Below, in pieces: positions 6,158-14,011 of a DNA stretch of 32,324 nt. The notes under the pieces are model-generated. The model did no database searches. It was not told where the DNA came from and worked only from the letters and a program-made list of their open reading frames with translations. Origin of the DNA: Candidatus Taylorbacteria bacterium RIFCSPHIGHO2_02_FULL_46_13 (GTDB lineage Bacteria; Patescibacteriota; Minisyncoccia; Phycocordibacterales; DSPV01); contig MHRQ01000014.1 of NCBI GenBank assembly GCA_001821015.1, forward strand, positions 1-32,324, in the 5' to 3' direction. Position 1 is the stretch's first letter. Every line of letters starts with the position of its first letter. The translations under genes and the position numbers were made by a program.

Positions 6158-6856
6158 ATGGTATTTCATATTGTTACCTTGTTCCCGGGCGCATTTAAAT
6201 CCTATTTGGGGGAGTCTGTTGTCGCACGTGCGATTAGAGAAAAGAGAATTGCGGTGAAGTTTTATAATCCACGGGACTATACGAAAGACAAATGGGCGCG
6301 AGTGGATCGTAGACCTTACGGCGGGGGTCCCGGCATGGTGCTTGAGGCGCCGGCATTTGTAAAAGCGATAGATTTCATTCATTCTAATATTCTCAAGAAT
6401 ATGAGAATGAAAAGAGGAGACAAATCAAAGAAATCCAAACCAGCGATCAAGACGATAATTTTTTCGGCCAATGGGAAAGAGTTTACTAATGTGTACGCGA
6501 AGAATGCATCTCAAAAATTCACCGACCTTGTTCTCGTTTGTGGTCGCTACGAGGGAATAGATGCGCGGGTTAAGAAGATTTTTAAGGCGCAGGAACTGTC
6601 AGTCGGCCCCTATATACTGACCGGTGGGGAATTGCCTGCCATGATTGTCCTTGACGCAGTTGCACGGCAAATCGAAGGGGTGCTTGGCAATTTTGATTCG
6701 GTTGAAGAAAGGCGCACCGCTTCGTCCGAGGTCTACACGCGCCCAGAAATTTTTAAGTACAAAGGCAAATTCTATCGCGTCCCCAAGATTCTTCTCTCCG
6801 GCCACCACCAAAAAATGGAGGCGTGGAAACAAAAACGTTCAAGACACGGTAAGTGA
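6158..6856 (+). CDS. trmD: tRNA (guanine-N1)-methyltransferase
   Basis: VTLFPGAFKSYLGESVVARA, RRPYGGGPGMVL, CGRYEGIDARV, LTGGELPAMIVLDAVARQIEGVLG, LLSGHHQKMEAW. Confidence 0.97.
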   Translation: MVFHIVTLFPGAFKSYLGESVVARAIREKRIAVKFYNPRDYTKDKWARVDRRPYGGGPGMVLEAPAFVKAIDFIHSNILKNMRMKRGDKSKKSKPAIKTIIFSANGKEFTNVYAKNASQKFTDLVLVCGRYEGIDARVKKIFKAQELSVGPYILTGGELPAMIVLDAVARQIEGVLGNFDSVEERRTASSEVYTRPEIFKYKGKFYRVPKILLSGHHQKMEAWKQKRSRHGK

Positions 6857-6860
6857 GCAC

Positions 6861-6885
6861 CATGTCAAGGTTCAACCTTGACATG
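6861..6885. repeat. Perfect 25-nt palindrome CATGTCAAGGTT-C-AACCTTGACATG
   Basis: Read directly, 4 nt after the trmD stop. Confidence 0.95.
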
Positions 6886-6982
6886 TCCTATAGGGTAGCG
6901 AATAAAGATAAAATATACTAGAATTAATGAAGTCCGCAGATTATAAAAAGACTTAGACCCCCATTTTAGATACGATAAAATT

Positions 6983-7573
6983 ATGAAAGAATTCTTAAGA
7001 AAAAATTTCGTCATTATACTTGCTTTTACTTTGCCGGTTCTATTGATAGTTGTTGTTGCTTTAAGCACGTATCTTCCTTCACTTTTCCTTTCTACGGACT
7101 ATAATTTTGTATATACATCATGCACTGACGGTAGGAATTATTACCCCTATCGTTGCGACGGTTATCTGCAAAAACGTTATATAGTGGTCGGTAATAAATT
7201 GGTCGTAAATCCAGTTGACATGACTCTTGACTCCAATAAGGACGGCGTGCCAGATTTTAGCGAAAAATATACTGACCGCATCTTTTTACATGACACAAAA
7301 AAGAACGAGAGTAGGGAAATAACCCTTGAGGAAGCCCAGACGATGACGCTCAATAGTCTATTGACATCACCTGATGGTGTTACCGTTTCAAGTTACTATG
7401 ATAGAAATGGTGGTGACTTCTTCTTTATTTTTGATGGTGGTTCTTCATCGTATGGGTATTACCTTACAAAAGGAAAAAGTAGAAACAAAATAAATCTGAT
7501 AAATAGTACGGATCAGTATTATTATCAAAACAATTTTCAATTTATTGGGTGGGTGTTGCCGGGTAGAAATTAA
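6983..7573 (+). CDS. Hypothetical membrane-anchored/exported protein with Ca-binding-loop-like motif
   Basis: N-terminal hydrophobic segment VIILAFTLPVLLIVVVALSTYL; DSNKDGVPDFSEKY resembles DxNxDGxxDxxE calcium loops. Confidence 0.7.
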   Translation: MKEFLRKNFVIILAFTLPVLLIVVVALSTYLPSLFLSTDYNFVYTSCTDGRNYYPYRCDGYLQKRYIVVGNKLVVNPVDMTLDSNKDGVPDFSEKYTDRIFLHDTKKNESREITLEEAQTMTLNSLLTSPDGVTVSSYYDRNGGDFFFIFDGGSSSYGYYLTKGKSRNKINLINSTDQYYYQNNFQFIGWVLPGRN

Positions 7574-7593
7574 TCACCTCTAACCATTTTTTT

Positions 7594-8563
7594 ATGAACA
7601 AAGAAGAACTACTTCAAGAGCTTTCCACTAAAATAAGTACGGGCGAGATAAGTCGCGAAGAGGTGATAAGCCGCTTTAGTCTTGCACCGACGGCACTAAG
7701 TAAAGAAGAAAGCTCGACGCATTTTTCAGTAACGAAAATGTTGTATGTTTTGGGCGCGGCCATCGTGGTTATTGGCATTATTATTTTTGTTCGTCAAATT
7801 TGGTATGACATTGGGTCTTTTGAGCGCATTTCAGTTACGTTAGGGTTGGGTTTCATTATTACGGCTATTGGGTCGGTGTTACTTAAAAATAAACCCGAGG
7901 ACAACCTTGGAACAGTCTTTCATTTTATGGGGGGCGCGTTGATCCCTGGAGGCGCGGTGGTGGCTCTTTCCGAACTCAATCTCCAGAACAGTGATTGGAC
8001 AGTCGCGCTTACATTCGGTGCTCTATTTATATTTTATGTATTACTAAATGTTGTCCATAAAAATGCTGTCCTGACTTTTTTCGCAATAGCGAATGGAACT
8101 GCCACCATTTATCTCGTTCTTAATGCGGTTACTGGCGGTCCCTTTGAGGGATGGTTTGGGATAAAAGATATCTATCAATACTTAACTATGGCAATAGGTG
8201 CGAGCTATCTGTTGCTTGGGTATGCTTTTCGTGATGGTTGGAACAAGAAACTCATCGGGATGCTCTATTTTTTCGGTATTACTGGTTTCCTTGGCGCTAC
8301 ATTTTCGCAAGTGTTCGATTCGGTTCTATGGCAAATGTTTTTCTTCCTCATTGTAATCGGCGGCCTTTCCTTGTCAGTGTATATGAGAAGTCGCATTATT
8401 TTGGTTATGAGCACTCTTTCTAATTGGTCATGTTTCGTATATCACAAGCGAATATTTTGCAGATTCACTCGGGTGGCCAATTTCGCTTGTTATCCTTGGT
8501 TTTGTATTTATTGGGCTCGGGTATTTTTCAATTAGTATCAATAAAAAATATATCGCAAAGTAG
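7594..8563 (+). pseudogene. Polytopic membrane protein (DUF2157-like by general pattern), frameshifted near the 3' end
   Basis: ORF 7594-8535 is multi-TM until about 8415, then turns into unlikely sequence; the +1 frame continues LIGHVSYITSEYFADSLGWPISLVILGFVFIGLGYFSISINKKYIAK to TAG at 8561-8563. Confidence 0.75.
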
Positions 8564-8579
8564 GTGTGTTAGAGTACCC

Positions 8580-8600
8580 TGTCAAGATTAGACCTTGACA
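8580..8600. repeat. Imperfect palindrome TGTCAAGATTAGACCTTGACA related to the 6861-6885 element
   Basis: Same TGTCAAG...CTTGACA arms as the element after trmD. Confidence 0.8.
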
Positions 8601-8644
8601 TGGTTGTGGAAGAGTGGAAAGAGAAGCGCTCTAAAAGGGTATAA
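8600..8644 (+). pseudogene. Remnant of trmD 3' end (MVVEEWKEKRSKRV*)
   Basis: Similar to the TrmD tail KMEAWKQKRSRHGK* and to the 9744-9821 copy KMQEWKKRRSKHS*. Confidence 0.7.
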
Positions 8645-8723
8645 ACTCGACTAAATATTTTATTACGTTTAAGCTAAGGCTACTGACTGATAGGCAGATT
8701 TGCGCTATCATTGCTAATAAATA

Positions 8724-9053
8724 ATGGAAATTCCAAAACTCAAATCAGATAAATATCGCAACGTACGTGGAGGCTACTCGCGCTTCTTAGATATATATTG
8801 CGATCGTTGCGGACATAAAGTGTTGGTCTATCAAAAAGATGGACCGGGTGAGTTGAAGCGACGTTACCTTGACCGAATCTCTTTTCCGAAGAAATTCACT
8901 CAATTACAGGGCTTGTCGATAAAGAAAGTCCCTAATCTGGTCTGTCCTAACTGTCATTCTTTACTTGGGATTTCTTATATATACCCGAAAGAAAAACGCT
9001 CTGCATTTCGGCTCTTTGCTGGTGCCATTAAAAAGAAAATTACTAAAAGATAA
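8724..9053 (+). CDS. Hypothetical small zinc-ribbon-like protein
   Basis: Two CxxC pairs: CDRCGHK and CPNCHS; stop followed by a terminator hairpin. Confidence 0.65.
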   Translation: MEIPKLKSDKYRNVRGGYSRFLDIYCDRCGHKVLVYQKDGPGELKRRYLDRISFPKKFTQLQGLSIKKVPNLVCPNCHSLLGISYIYPKEKRSAFRLFAGAIKKKITKR

Positions 9054-9054
9054 A

Positions 9055-9081
9055 AAAAGCCCCGACGTGAATCGGGGCTTG
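9055..9081. terminator. Terminator hairpin between convergent genes
   Basis: AAGCCCCG-acgtgaat-CGGGGCTT with A-run on + side (T-run on -). Confidence 0.8.
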
Positions 9082-9085
9082 TGAG

Positions 9086-9691
9086 CTACTGGCGCTCGCC
9101 AATAACCGTAAGGTACATCTCGTAGATTTTCTCTGCGGTCTTTCTAACTTCAAACTCACTGTTAACGATACTCCAGTCAACTACATTGTCATAGCCGCCT
9201 TGATAATAAGCCTCAAGCTCATTTAGAGCCGCCGTATAGCGACTCCGGCCTGGATCACGCCCATCCTCAAGGTGTCGCTCTATCGCGACGACATCAGGTG
9301 GTTCAACGTAGACCTTGAAGGTCTTGCCGGGGAATGCCGTAAGCATGATTTGGACTTTCTGCACTGGCCAGTCGAGAAGTGGGAAGCAGTTTTCCACAAA
9401 CGCTTTCTCAATCGGCTCTCGCGGTGTCGCGTATCGAACACCATAGAGCTCGTTTATTGCAAGAATCTTTTCTTGATTGTTCAACTCGTCGAGCACTGTA
9501 TTGCTAACAGAAACCTTATCAGTTTCTCCCGAACGTAACGCGCGGGTCATGAACGGCGAGATGTAAGCAAAGCGAGAATCAAGTTGTCTTAATTCCCGTA
9601 TGATTGCCGACTTGCCAACTCCCGAAGGACCGAACAACAAGAGGAATTTCTGGTTGGAAACTCCACGCGCAGCATTGAGCGTTGCTTTCAT
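9086..9691 (-). CDS. Guanylate kinase-like P-loop protein
   Basis: LLLFGPSGVGKSAIIREL, FMTRALRSGETDKVSVS, FKVYVEPPDVVAIERHL; start taken at internal ATG 9691. Confidence 0.75.
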   Translation of the reverse strand: MKATLNAARGVSNQKFLLLFGPSGVGKSAIIRELRQLDSRFAYISPFMTRALRSGETDKVSVSNTVLDELNNQEKILAINELYGVRYATPREPIEKAFVENCFPLLDWPVQKVQIMLTAFPGKTFKVYVEPPDVVAIERHLEDGRDPGRSRYTAALNELEAYYQGGYDNVVDWSIVNSEFEVRKTAEKIYEMYLTVIGERQ

Positions 9692-9743
9692 CGAAACGAC
9701 TGAACGCACAAACTACAATATGATTAGAGATAAGTCAATCTCT

Positions 9744-9821
9744 CGTGTACCAAAAATCCTGCTCTCCGGCCACCACCAGAAAATGCAGGAGTGGAAAAAG
9801 AGGCGTTCTAAGCACAGTTAG
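9744..9821 (+). pseudogene. Detached trmD 3' end copy (RVPKILLSGHHQKMQEWKKRRSKHS*)
   Basis: Co-linear with trmD 6776-6853 over 78 nt, roughly three quarters identical by eye, including identical CTCTCCGGCCACCACCA. Confidence 0.9.
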
Positions 9822-9877
9822 TCTTTACTTGCTGGCATTTCGCCTCCGTGATAGGGTAGCACGAGAAAGGAGGGCTT

Positions 9878-10405
9878 ATGAAAGCTCCACAAATATTGAT
9901 CATTGAACTTAGGTCACAATACACATGGCTCATTGAAAGAAGTCTGCGCGAACTGGGTGTTCGCAGCGCGATTCTATCACCTGCAAAAGCTAAGGATTGG
10001 CTCACGGCTAATCGCCCCAAGGGAATAATCCTCTCTGGTGGAGAAGCAAGTGTCAACGATATTGACCCGCCGATTCCTCCCGAGGAGCGTCTCTCCATTG
10101 TACGCTGGGCCGATATACAAGTGTCGCGCATTCTTAAGGAAAACGGCGATTACGAACGTATGTCGCAACTTGTTGTGGTGCTTCTGTGTGTTAACACGGT
10201 CGGTGTGAAAGGGGATGCGCGAGTGTATGGACCTACGGTTGGCGTGCGAGGAATAATCACCTCGGACTTCATGACCGGACGCGGGTATCAGATTCCGAAG
10301 GAAGTGAGGCGCAGGATCACTTCAACCCTTACCAAACACTCTGGTATTGTGCATGTCGGTTTTTTTGAAGAGGATAAACCTCCAGGAACGACTGAGTTTG
10401 AGTAA
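9878..10405 (+). CDS. Internally deleted GMP synthase-like protein (mini-GuaA): N-terminal part of GATase domain fused to C-terminal dimerisation domain
   Basis: QILIIELRSQYTWLIERSLRELGV...KGIILSGGEASVND matches the GuaA N-terminus; EERLSIVRWADIQVSRILKENGDYERMSQ...VGVKGDARVYGP...DFMTG...KPPGTTEFE matches the GuaA C-terminus; SD GAAAGGAGGGCTT-ATG. Confidence 0.85.
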   Translation: MKAPQILIIELRSQYTWLIERSLRELGVRSAILSPAKAKDWLTANRPKGIILSGGEASVNDIDPPIPPEERLSIVRWADIQVSRILKENGDYERMSQLVVVLLCVNTVGVKGDARVYGPTVGVRGIITSDFMTGRGYQIPKEVRRRITSTLTKHSGIVHVGFFEEDKPPGTTEFE

Positions 10406-10423: not shown

Positions 10424-10457
10424 AACCGCCCGAACTCTTGCTATGGGCGGTTTTTTG
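10424..10457 (+). terminator. Rho-independent terminator
   Basis: AACCGCCC-N13-GGGCGGTTTTTTG. Confidence 0.85.
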
Positions 10458-10783: not shown

Positions 10784-13700
10784 ATGACAACGAGTACCAA
10801 AACACACCAAACGGTAAGCTGGCCGAAAAAATATTTTAGCCGTTTCAAAGATGCGCTCGCGCCGTTGCCTAATTTGGTAGAGGCTCAGACAGATTCTTTC
10901 ACGTGGTTGCTTGAGAAAGGACTGAAAGAAGTTTTTAAAGAGTTTTCTCCCATCAAAGATTATTCGGATAAAAAATTTGAGCTAGAGATAACCGGTTTTA
11001 CCGTAGGGGAACCAAAGTACGACGAATATCACGCGAAGGACAATAAACTTGCCTATGAGGCACCGCTTAAGATGACGGTGCGTCTTAAAAACAAAATACA
11101 AGGAACAACCAAGGAACAAGAAATTTTCATGGCTGATTTCCCTTTGATGACGTCGCACGGTACGTTTATTATTTCAGGTGTTGAGCGGGTCATTGTGCCG
11201 CAGCTCGCGCGTTCTTTCGGTGTCTTTTTCACCAGCGAAGAAATCAAGGATAAGCGCTATTTTGGCGCGAAAATCATTCCGTCACGAGGCGTCTGGATTG
11301 AAATTGAGACGGAAGCTGACGGAGCGATTTACGTGCGCATTGACCGCAAACGCAAATTTCCGATATCTTCTCTCCTACGCGTTATTTCCAAAAAGTCTGA
11401 CAAAGATATTATCAATGCGTTTTCTAAGCACCCCTCGGCTAAAGCCTTTCTTGAGGCCTCATTTGCCAAAGATCACGCAAAAACCATTGATGAATCCTAT
11501 ATAGAAATTCACAAGCGTTTGCGTGATGGTGAGATTGGTTCGGTTGACCACGCAAAGGAGTTCATTAATGGAATCTTTAATCATGCCCGCTATGACCTTT
11601 CAAAGGTTGGCCGTTTTAAACTGAATAAACGCTTCGGTCTCCCCTTTGAAGAAAAAGATCTGGAGGAGCGCATTGTTTCATTTGATGACCTTGTGCGAAT
11701 CACGACGCATGTCGCCGAACTTAATACAACGCCGGGTGCAATAGAAGACGATATAGACCATTTAGGGTCACGTCGTGTGCGTTTTGTCGGAGAGCTTTTG
11801 CAACAGAAGATTCGCATTGGTATGTCGCAAATCAAGCGCAACATTCAGGACAGAATGTCTACGATTGATTCGGACGTAACGATGCCCGTGCAATTTATTT
11901 CCCCAAAACCGCTGCAGGCTCGCATCAAGGAATTTTTCACCACGAACCAACTTTCACAGTTTATGGCTCAAGAAAATATTCTTGCAGAGCTTGAGCATTT
12001 ACGAACCCTATCGGCGCTTGGCCCCGGAGGACTCACGCGTGAGCGTGCGGGGTTTGAAGTTCGCGACGTACATCCATCTCACTATGGCCGTTTGTGTCCT
12101 ATACACACACCTGAAGGTCCGAACATCGGGCTTATCCTTCGTCTTTCCACCTACGCACGAATCAACGAATTCGGTATGATTGAAACGCCCTATGCGAAAG
12201 TGAAGAATGGAAAAGTCACGGGTGAGATTCAGTATCTTAACGCCCTGGAAGAGGAAAATTATGATATCGCTCACGCGGCTACGGCTGTTGGTCCTGATGG
12301 AAGCATTTTGGAAAATGAAATTGAGGTGCGAACCAACGGGGAGCCCGGCCTTATTCACAAGGAAGATGTTGAATATATAGACGTTGCAACGAACCAGGCA
12401 TTTTCCATCGCAACCTCCATGATCCCATTTTTAAATCACAACGACGCCAACCGCGCGCTGATGGGCTCAAACATGCAAAAACAGGCCACCCCATGCCTTA
12501 TTCCCGAAGCCCCGCTTGTCGCTACGGGGATAGAGAGAAAGGCAGCGGCCGATACTGGGCGCGTGGTTATTTCCCAGGAAGATGGTACCGTAACGAAGGT
12601 AGATGCTCGTTTCATCGCGGTGAAAGGGCGCAGTAAAGAACGAACGTATCCTCTGGTCAATTTTTCACGGACCAATGGGTTTACCATGTTCCATCAGCGT
12701 CCGTCGGTGAATGTCGGTGATAAGGTCAAAAAGGGTGATGTGTTGGCTGATACCTCATCAAGCGACCGTGGAGAAATGGCGCTTGGTCAGAACGTTTTGA
12801 TTGCCTTCATGTCTTGGTCTGGAGCGAATTACGAGGATGCCATCATTTTGTCAGAATCGCTTGTACGCGAGAGCCGATTTGCCTCTATTCATATTGAAGA
12901 GTTTGTAGTCAATGTTCGTGACACAAAACTTGGACCTGAAATCACCACGCATGATATCCCTAATGTCGGCGAAGCAAAGCTCAAGAATCTTGACGAAGAT
13001 GGCATGATACGCATTGGCGCAGAAGTGCGCCCCGGAGACATCTTGGTTGGTAAAATTACCCCCAAAGGGGAGACGCAGCTTACGCCTGAAGAGCGTTTGC
13101 TCCGGAGTCTCTTTGGCGAAAAAGCTCGTGATGTAAAAGATACTTCCAAGCGTACCGAGAACGGAAAGCGGGGTCGTATTATCGGAGTCAAAGTGTTCTC
13201 GCGCGAAAAAGGAGACAAACTTGATTCAGGTATTATCAAGCGAATTCATATTGAAGTCGCAGAAATAAGAAATGTTTCGGTAGGAGATAAGCTCGCAGGC
13301 CGTCACGGCAACAAGGGAGTCATCTCAAAGATTTTACCGGAAGCAGACATGCCGTTTATGCCTGATGGAAGGCCGATTGATATGATTTTGACACCGCTCG
13401 GCGTGCCGTCTCGTATGAATCTCGGTCAAATTCTTGAACTACACCTCGGTCTTGCCGCGAAGACACTTGGGTATCAGGCGGTTGTGCCACCGTTCGCTGG
13501 TGCGACAGATGCCGAGATAAAAGCAGAATTAAAAGCGGCAGGCTACAGCGAGAATGGCAAGATGCGTCTGAAGGATGGGCGCACCGGAGAGGAGTTTGAA
13601 CAAGACATCGCGGTTGGATATATGTACATTATGAAGTTGCATCACATGGTTGAAGACAAGATTCATATGCGCTCTATCGGACCCTACTCTCTTATCACAC

Positions 13701-14011
13701 AGCAGCCTCTCGGGGGGAAGGCACAGGGGGGAGGCCAGCGTTTCGGAGAAATGGAAGTCTGGGCGCTTCTGGGGCACGGGGTGGCATACACTCTCCGTGA
13801 AATGCTTACGGTGAAATCGGACGACATTGTCGGTCGCGCGGCGGCGTTTGACTCCATTGTTCGGGGTGCTGATATCAGTCAGTCCAACGTCCCCGCGTCC
13901 TTTAACGTGTTGTTGAACAATTTGCGTGGGTTATCCCTTGATATCAAATTGGAGAAATCAAGCGGCGAGGTGGAAGCGTCGAAACCAAAACGTCGTAGCA
14001 CTCGGGAATAA
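10784..14011 (+). CDS. rpoB: DNA-directed RNA polymerase beta subunit
   Basis: Full-length homology pattern, e.g. HYGRLCPIHTPEGPNIGLI, GDKLAGRHGNKGVISKILP, GGQRFGEMEVWALLGHG. Confidence 0.99.
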   Translation: MTTSTKTHQTVSWPKKYFSRFKDALAPLPNLVEAQTDSFTWLLEKGLKEVFKEFSPIKDYSDKKFELEITGFTVGEPKYDEYHAKDNKLAYEAPLKMTVRLKNKIQGTTKEQEIFMADFPLMTSHGTFIISGVERVIVPQLARSFGVFFTSEEIKDKRYFGAKIIPSRGVWIEIETEADGAIYVRIDRKRKFPISSLLRVISKKSDKDIINAFSKHPSAKAFLEASFAKDHAKTIDESYIEIHKRLRDGEIGSVDHAKEFINGIFNHARYDLSKVGRFKLNKRFGLPFEEKDLEERIVSFDDLVRITTHVAELNTTPGAIEDDIDHLGSRRVRFVGELLQQKIRIGMSQIKRNIQDRMSTIDSDVTMPVQFISPKPLQARIKEFFTTNQLSQFMAQENILAELEHLRTLSALGPGGLTRERAGFEVRDVHPSHYGRLCPIHTPEGPNIGLILRLSTYARINEFGMIETPYAKVKNGKVTGEIQYLNALEEENYDIAHAATAVGPDGSILENEIEVRTNGEPGLIHKEDVEYIDVATNQAFSIATSMIPFLNHNDANRALMGSNMQKQATPCLIPEAPLVATGIERKAAADTGRVVISQEDGTVTKVDARFIAVKGRSKERTYPLVNFSRTNGFTMFHQRPSVNVGDKVKKGDVLADTSSSDRGEMALGQNVLIAFMSWSGANYEDAIILSESLVRESRFASIHIEEFVVNVRDTKLGPEITTHDIPNVGEAKLKNLDEDGMIRIGAEVRPGDILVGKITPKGETQLTPEERLLRSLFGEKARDVKDTSKRTENGKRGRIIGVKVFSREKGDKLDSGIIKRIHIEVAEIRNVSVGDKLAGRHGNKGVISKILPEADMPFMPDGRPIDMILTPLGVPSRMNLGQILELHLGLAAKTLGYQAVVPPFAGATDAEIKAELKAAGYSENGKMRLKDGRTGEEFEQDIAVGYMYIMKLHHMVEDKIHMRSIGPYSLITQQPLGGKAQGGGQRFGEMEVWALLGHGVAYTLREMLTVKSDDIVGRAAAFDSIVRGADISQSNVPASFNVLLNNLRGLSLDIKLEKSSGEVEASKPKRRSTRE

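Follow-up and report, generated by a model that had tools for sequence, protein, structure and literature searches.

A 175-residue open reading frame in the window, the whole contig of 32,324 nucleotides (C14) from Candidatus Taylorbacteria bacterium RIFCSPHIGHO2_02_FULL_46_13 that we analyzed, is very probably a recently truncated guaA, that is, an ordinary and very young loss-of-function deletion. The predicted product, here called mini-GuaA, consists of GuaA residues 1 to 69, the start of the GATase domain, joined to the last 106 residues, the C-terminal XMP/dimerization domain. Compared with the full-length protein of a genome from the same genus (G003), it is shorter by about 339 residues, close to the 330 or so given in the original prediction, and both the Cys-His-Glu triad and the P-loop are missing.

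Several searches agree with the earlier description of a GuaA-like start running straight into the GuaA C-terminal domain. Residues 6 to 62 match the N terminus of the GATase profile TIGR00888 (42.9 bits, E = 3.4e-11), residues 69 to 175 match positions 405 to 512 of the GMP synthase profile NF000848, in its C-terminal part, and the C-terminal domain PF00958 is matched with 61 bits (E = 1.2e-16; cutoff, 27 bits). In a PDB search, both pieces align to opposite ends of the same GMP synthases, e.g., 2ywb 2 to 65 and 395 to 503. Against NF000848 mini-GuaA scores 107.3 bits and does not reach the equivalog cutoff of 400 bits. The N-terminal piece stops short of the nucleophile-Cys region, and, as had been claimed, that region and the whole ATP pyrophosphatase (ATPPase) domain are missing; the deleted part includes the GATase triad Cys-His-Glu, the ATPPase P-loop SGGVDS, and the PFPGPG XMP loop. 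Neither glutamine hydrolysis nor ATP activation of XMP is possible for such a protein, and mini-GuaA is therefore no GMP synthase. The features of the locus are listed in Table 1.

Table 1. Features of the mini-GuaA locus, with two loci outside the window; positions are those of the window unless another locus is named.
Feature	Position	Strand	Basis or remark
trmD, left syntenic marker	6158..6856	+	PF01746; 72% identity to G003 gene
Copy of trmD 3' end (84 nt), just upstream of mini gene	9739..9822	+	77% identity to 6771-6854
Promoter-like TTGCTG-N17-TAGGGT	9829..9857	+	Read in sequence
Shine-Dalgarno AAAGGAGG	9866..9873	+	Read directly in sequence
Mini-GuaA ORF, 175 aa	9878-10405	+	ORF, start, stop, and coordinates checked
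N-terminal piece, residues 1-69, class I GATase beta1-alpha1-beta2-alpha2-beta3	9878..10084	+	TIGR00888 positions 1-57
Junction CCC-GAG-GAG-CGT (P68-E69-E70-R71)	10079..10090	+	Comparison with G003 full gene
C-terminal piece, residues 70-175 + stop, GMP_synt_C domain, terminal KPPGTTEFE motif	10085..10405	+	PF00958, NF000848 405-512
Terminator-like hairpin AACCGCCC..GGGCGGTT + T run	10424..10456	+	Stem in MFE and centroid structures
rpoB, right syntenic marker	10784..14011	+	87% identity to G003 gene
guaB-purA operon, cut inside purA by contig end	L036 (G000:C4) 1-2173
Interrupted guaA of G566	L051 4154-5677	-	In-frame stop between FK and EVREL

The comparison that carries this reading is with G003, Candidatus Taylorbacteria bacterium RIFCSPHIGHO2_01_FULL_46_22b, the sole other member of the genus among the genomes compared. 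This genome carries an intact 514-aa guaA between trmD and rpoB, at the same locus as the mini gene, and the order ribosomal protein S16, trmD, guaA, rpoB, rpoC is common to G003 and the window; two further genes in the shared order are presumably those for smc and a KH protein. The G003 GuaA retains GICYGMQ, QFHPE, SGGVDS, and the PFPGPG XMP loop, and its score against NF000848 (416.5 bits) lies above the 400-bit equivalog cutoff. Residues 1 to 69 of mini-GuaA align to it without gaps at 74% identity, and the last 106 residues, also without gaps, at 57.5%. Because the alignment is ungapped on both sides of one junction, the mini gene would have arisen from the resident guaA by one deletion that kept the frame. 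Two marks of a gene remnant are thus present: an intact syntenic ortholog in a close relative (trmD-guaA-rpoB of G003) and the absence of residues that the original activity requires, as the 339 missing residues include both active sites. It is extremely improbable that the gene belongs to a separately evolved short family with GuaA-like ends, with no deletion of a resident gene; the size and the open frame would suit such a family, but nothing else does, and the synteny, the promoter-like element, and the ungapped two-sided alignment are all common to the full gene of G003, with further members not found in the class and phylum samples.

At the point corresponding to the junction, the full gene of G003 reads PPE/V on the left and TE/ER on the right, a Glu codon being common to both sides. 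The microhomology would therefore span at least 3 nt, and as many as about 6 had the ancestor carried CCGAGG on both sides, an extent read from G003 and not from the immediate ancestor of the mini gene. The ancestral gene, for an ordinary GMP synthase of full length, would have lain between trmD and rpoB, where G003 has its guaA today. It would then have lost about 1,017 bp (339 codons) in one internal deletion, probably through slipped mispairing at a GAG codon and the few bases shared around it, and with them the remainder of the GATase domain and all of the ATPPase domain. The frame would have stayed open by luck (the chance expectation for an in-frame outcome of a deletion is 1 in 3), and the product would most likely be a nonfunctional remnant, too young for mutations to have accumulated; how the deletion arose, that it is young, and that the product has no function are what we infer for the mini gene.

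It is distinctly improbable that the deletion is an assembly or strain artifact, i.e., that the assembly shows a misjoin or else a minority variant of a population that has full guaA. The 887-kb assembly is in 32 contigs and 95.3% complete, a degree of fragmentation consistent with a metagenome-assembled genome, and a junction at a short shared motif in a gene without decay would fit such an origin; but the motif of about 3 to 6 nt is too short for a k-mer misjoin, the change of Gly12 to Arg, seen in the mini gene only, falls inside the retained N-terminal piece, and no leftover middle fragment of guaA occurs elsewhere in the assembly. With a full-length GuaA query, no other guaA and no detached ATPPase or GATase piece was found in the assembly either.

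The absence of a second guaA from the assembly bears on whether the cell makes GMP synthase at all. An intact guaB (500 aa, above the equivalog cutoff) lies on contig C4 and heads a guaB-purA operon that the contig end interrupts (Table 1); the rest of purA was not found in the assembly. In a relative, G155, the gene order is guaB-purA-guaA. Since the operon is cut where G155 has guaA, a second, full guaA could lie in the assembly gap after purA, and if it does, redundancy would have freed the trmD-rpoB copy for loss. The suggestion that the genome might hold a full-length guaA elsewhere is thus answered in part: none is assembled, and the gap at the end of the guaB-purA contig leaves room for one. 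It is very improbable that a full GuaA encoded in this gap is joined by a truncated copy kept as a mixed-dimer C-domain partner that tunes GMP synthesis. In G003 the situation is reversed, with guaA present and no match to guaB or purA. Among the 39 genomes of the order sample with a guaA match, 12, including G003, have no guaB match over the cutoff; the coupling of the two genes in this order is only partial.

The original prediction held that the mini gene looks maintained, citing its open frame, strong Shine-Dalgarno sequence, possible promoter, and terminator. The signals themselves are present as described. The Shine-Dalgarno sequence AAAGGAGG has a counterpart, AGAAAGGA, at the matching position before the full-length guaA of G003, and the AAAGGA ribosome-binding site is upstream of both genes. 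TTGCTG-N17-TAGGGT is likewise found upstream of the mini gene, a scan for the sigma-70 consensus did not report it at 9829..9857, and a similar layout, TTGCAA-N17-TAGGGT, precedes the G003 gene. The hairpin AACCGCCC/GGGCGGTT with its T run follows the stop codon, with a fold z-score of only -0.99. Judged by this comparison, the open frame, the Shine-Dalgarno sequence, and the promoter-like element are inherited from full guaA; being shared with the full gene of G003, they do not establish that the mini gene is maintained, and the lack of decay fits a recent deletion as well as maintenance.

The mini gene does sit directly after a trmD tail, as had been noticed; the 84-nt copy of the trmD 3' end lies 2.9 kb downstream of trmD itself. 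A weaker trmD-tail-like end (EEWKEKRSKRV, then stop; 8600-8643), whose DNA score is within chance, follows a DUF2157 membrane-protein gene (7594-8590, plus strand) that has an apparent frameshift near 8420-8450 with the frame-1 continuation ALFLIGHVSYITSEYFADSLGWPISLVILGFVFIGLGYFSISINKKYIAK. At the equivalent place G003 lacks the segment from 6857 to 9738, which may mean that genes were inserted one after another behind trmD. Adjoining the guaA remnant, a divergent second guanylate-kinase-like ORF (9086-9709, minus strand) matches PF00625 with 46.7 bits; this genome has its ordinary gmk on contig C12 (128 bits), the only kind present in G003. The trmD-guaA-rpoB interval of G003 has its own additions, several short pilin-like ORFs (LVEIMIVVAI) that flank guaA and are preceded by a repeated leader, AAACCAACCCCTG..CATCGTATGCGCAACATTTCTGGAAG.

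Selection on the retained codons was assessed in several ways. Between the mini gene and G003, 28.6% of codons differ at position 1, 21.1% at position 2, and 62.9% at position 3. Relative-rate counts, made against 14 full-length GuaAs, show the mini protein evolving no faster than that of G003, and more slowly in the C-terminal piece. It is changed at 4 of the 41 near-invariant positions in the retained pieces, of which three are changed in G003 too and one is private, the replacement of Gly12 by Arg in the DFGSQY motif. A codon model purpose-written for this case gave an omega of about 0.03 on the mini branch and 0.085 elsewhere, a difference that is not significant and values that are rough in absolute terms, synonymous change being saturated at these distances. 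For the whole mini branch, omega = 1 is rejected (2dlnL = 9.2). If the branch is allowed to end in a neutral stretch, lengths above about 0.1 neutral substitutions per codon cost about 2 or more lnL units, the branch without such a stretch amounting to about 2.6 in the same units. Relaxed selection on the remainder is thus not seen over the branch as a whole, with a neutral tail of up to about 0.1 neutral substitutions per codon allowed, and either the deletion falls in the last few percent of the branch or selection has kept the product constrained ever since. The codon analysis shows no decay on the branch and does not show maintenance; with the deletion known from one genome, it fits maintenance and recent loss equally.

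Orthologs with the same junction were sought more widely. A second mini-GuaA architecture was not found among 5 family, 399 order, 392 class, and 389 phylum genomes, draws that overlap, and two scans of an 85,488-genome collection with mini-protein patterns found no same-junction ortholog; the sole contig that they returned is the G003 contig with full-length guaA. The mini architecture is accordingly not conserved in other genomes of the sampled ranks, as expected of a remnant. Short PF00958 frames in G116, G242, G143, and G547 were rejected as mini-GuaAs because they are at contig ends, and G566 was rejected because it has a full guaA split by one in-frame stop. In the phylum sample, the short frame of G862 begins at base 2 of its contig and, like those of G1096 and G1073 (94 and 244 aa), was judged by the hit table alone. 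Mini-GuaA is also absent from the literature found by searching. The original prediction had named the combination that would speak against it, and this combination is what we see: no ortholog with the junction, and full guaA at the locus in the closest relative. Within the order, guaA is patchy, with matches in 39 of 399 genomes (about 10%). Because guaA is often absent in the order and the expression signals are merely inherited, young loss is the simpler reading; the near-invariant GATase Gly of DFGSQY, replaced by Arg12 in the mini gene only, also argues for it. Against it stand the surviving open frame and the retained codons without relaxation, as a maintained short protein would look alike, and the intact guaB in the same genome, with which GMP synthase activity would seem useful.

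Could the short protein still do something? In GuaA of Thermus thermophilus (TtGuaA), the C-domain contacts XMP through Gln424, Lys495, Ile500, and Glu501 (PMC11448925); the counterparts in mini-GuaA are Q97, K167, T172, and E173, of which Q97, K167, and E173 are conserved and Thr at the Ile500 position is the usual residue in this group. The rest of the site, formed in TtGuaA by Arg288 and Pro382-Gly383-Pro384 (PMC11448925), amounts to half of it and belonged to the domain now deleted. For TtGuaA and EcGuaA, an Arg-Asp salt bridge between subunits has been described (PMC11448925), at positions that align with His159 and Phe163 of mini-GuaA; the loss of this bridge probably predates the deletion, since G003 is also without it. 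An AlphaFold model has native-like local structure in each piece (pTM 0.59), with less confidence where the pieces join and in the C-terminal tail; the alignment behind it consists of full-length homologs, and local confidence shows only that the pieces can keep their native local structure. All confident Foldseek matches of the model are GMP synthases. Mini-GuaA could conceivably form a C-domain dimer or a scaffold, although none of these observations points to one specifically.

Taken together, we consider it unlikely that mini-GuaA is a maintained protein, i.e., a C-domain with a GATase stub kept as a heterodimer partner or inhibitor of a full GuaA from another locus or as a nucleotide-binding scaffold. 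The strong purifying signal and lack of decay over the mini branch, the conserved XMP contacts, the confident predicted local fold of the C-domain, and the room for a full GuaA after guaB-purA would all suit this reading. Against it, the architecture occurs in one genome only, half of the XMP site is gone, the salt bridge is replaced (although G003 lacks it too), full GuaA was not found in a 95%-complete assembly, and the GATase stub is merely three strands of an open sheet, carrying G12R. The proposed dominant-negative or regulatory partner, or repurposed scaffold, is left unsupported beyond the lack of decay, with no junction orthologs found and with full guaA at the G003 locus. If a short protein were kept after all, a metabolic enzyme would have shrunk to its oligomerization domain, which would be unusual. 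As a young loss, mini-GuaA adds one more case of gene loss among the reduced Patescibacteria genomes, its small value being that the gene was apparently caught just after the deletion and before decay, while the same genus still offers an intact ortholog; a further lesson is that an open frame and good expression signals do not demonstrate that a protein is maintained.

Among known systems, ordinary GuaA (NF000848; GATase, ATPPase, and GMP_synt_C) resembles mini-GuaA in both ends, in its locus, and in the C-terminal KPPxTxE(F/W)E motif, but it has the Cys-His-Glu triad, the P-loop, and the whole ATPPase domain. In split archaeal GMP synthases, such as those of M. jannaschii and P. horikoshii, the ATPPase subunit also ends in a PF00958 domain; their subunits are complete, at about 188 and 310 aa, whereas mini-GuaA is without either catalytic unit. 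A split archaeal-type enzyme was rejected for this genome, where there is only the 69-residue GATase stub and, by the full-GuaA query, no ATPPase. The mini gene also resembles the young pseudogenes and in-frame deletion remnants of reduced bacterial genomes, with which it shares occurrence in a single genome, an intact syntenic sister ortholog, a missing catalytic core, and inherited control signals, although it shows no frameshift, stop, or measurable relaxation yet. The interrupted gene of G566, from the same class, is likewise a broken guaA in a Patescibacteria genome; there the break is a nonsense codon, real or a sequencing error, whereas in mini-GuaA it is a deletion.
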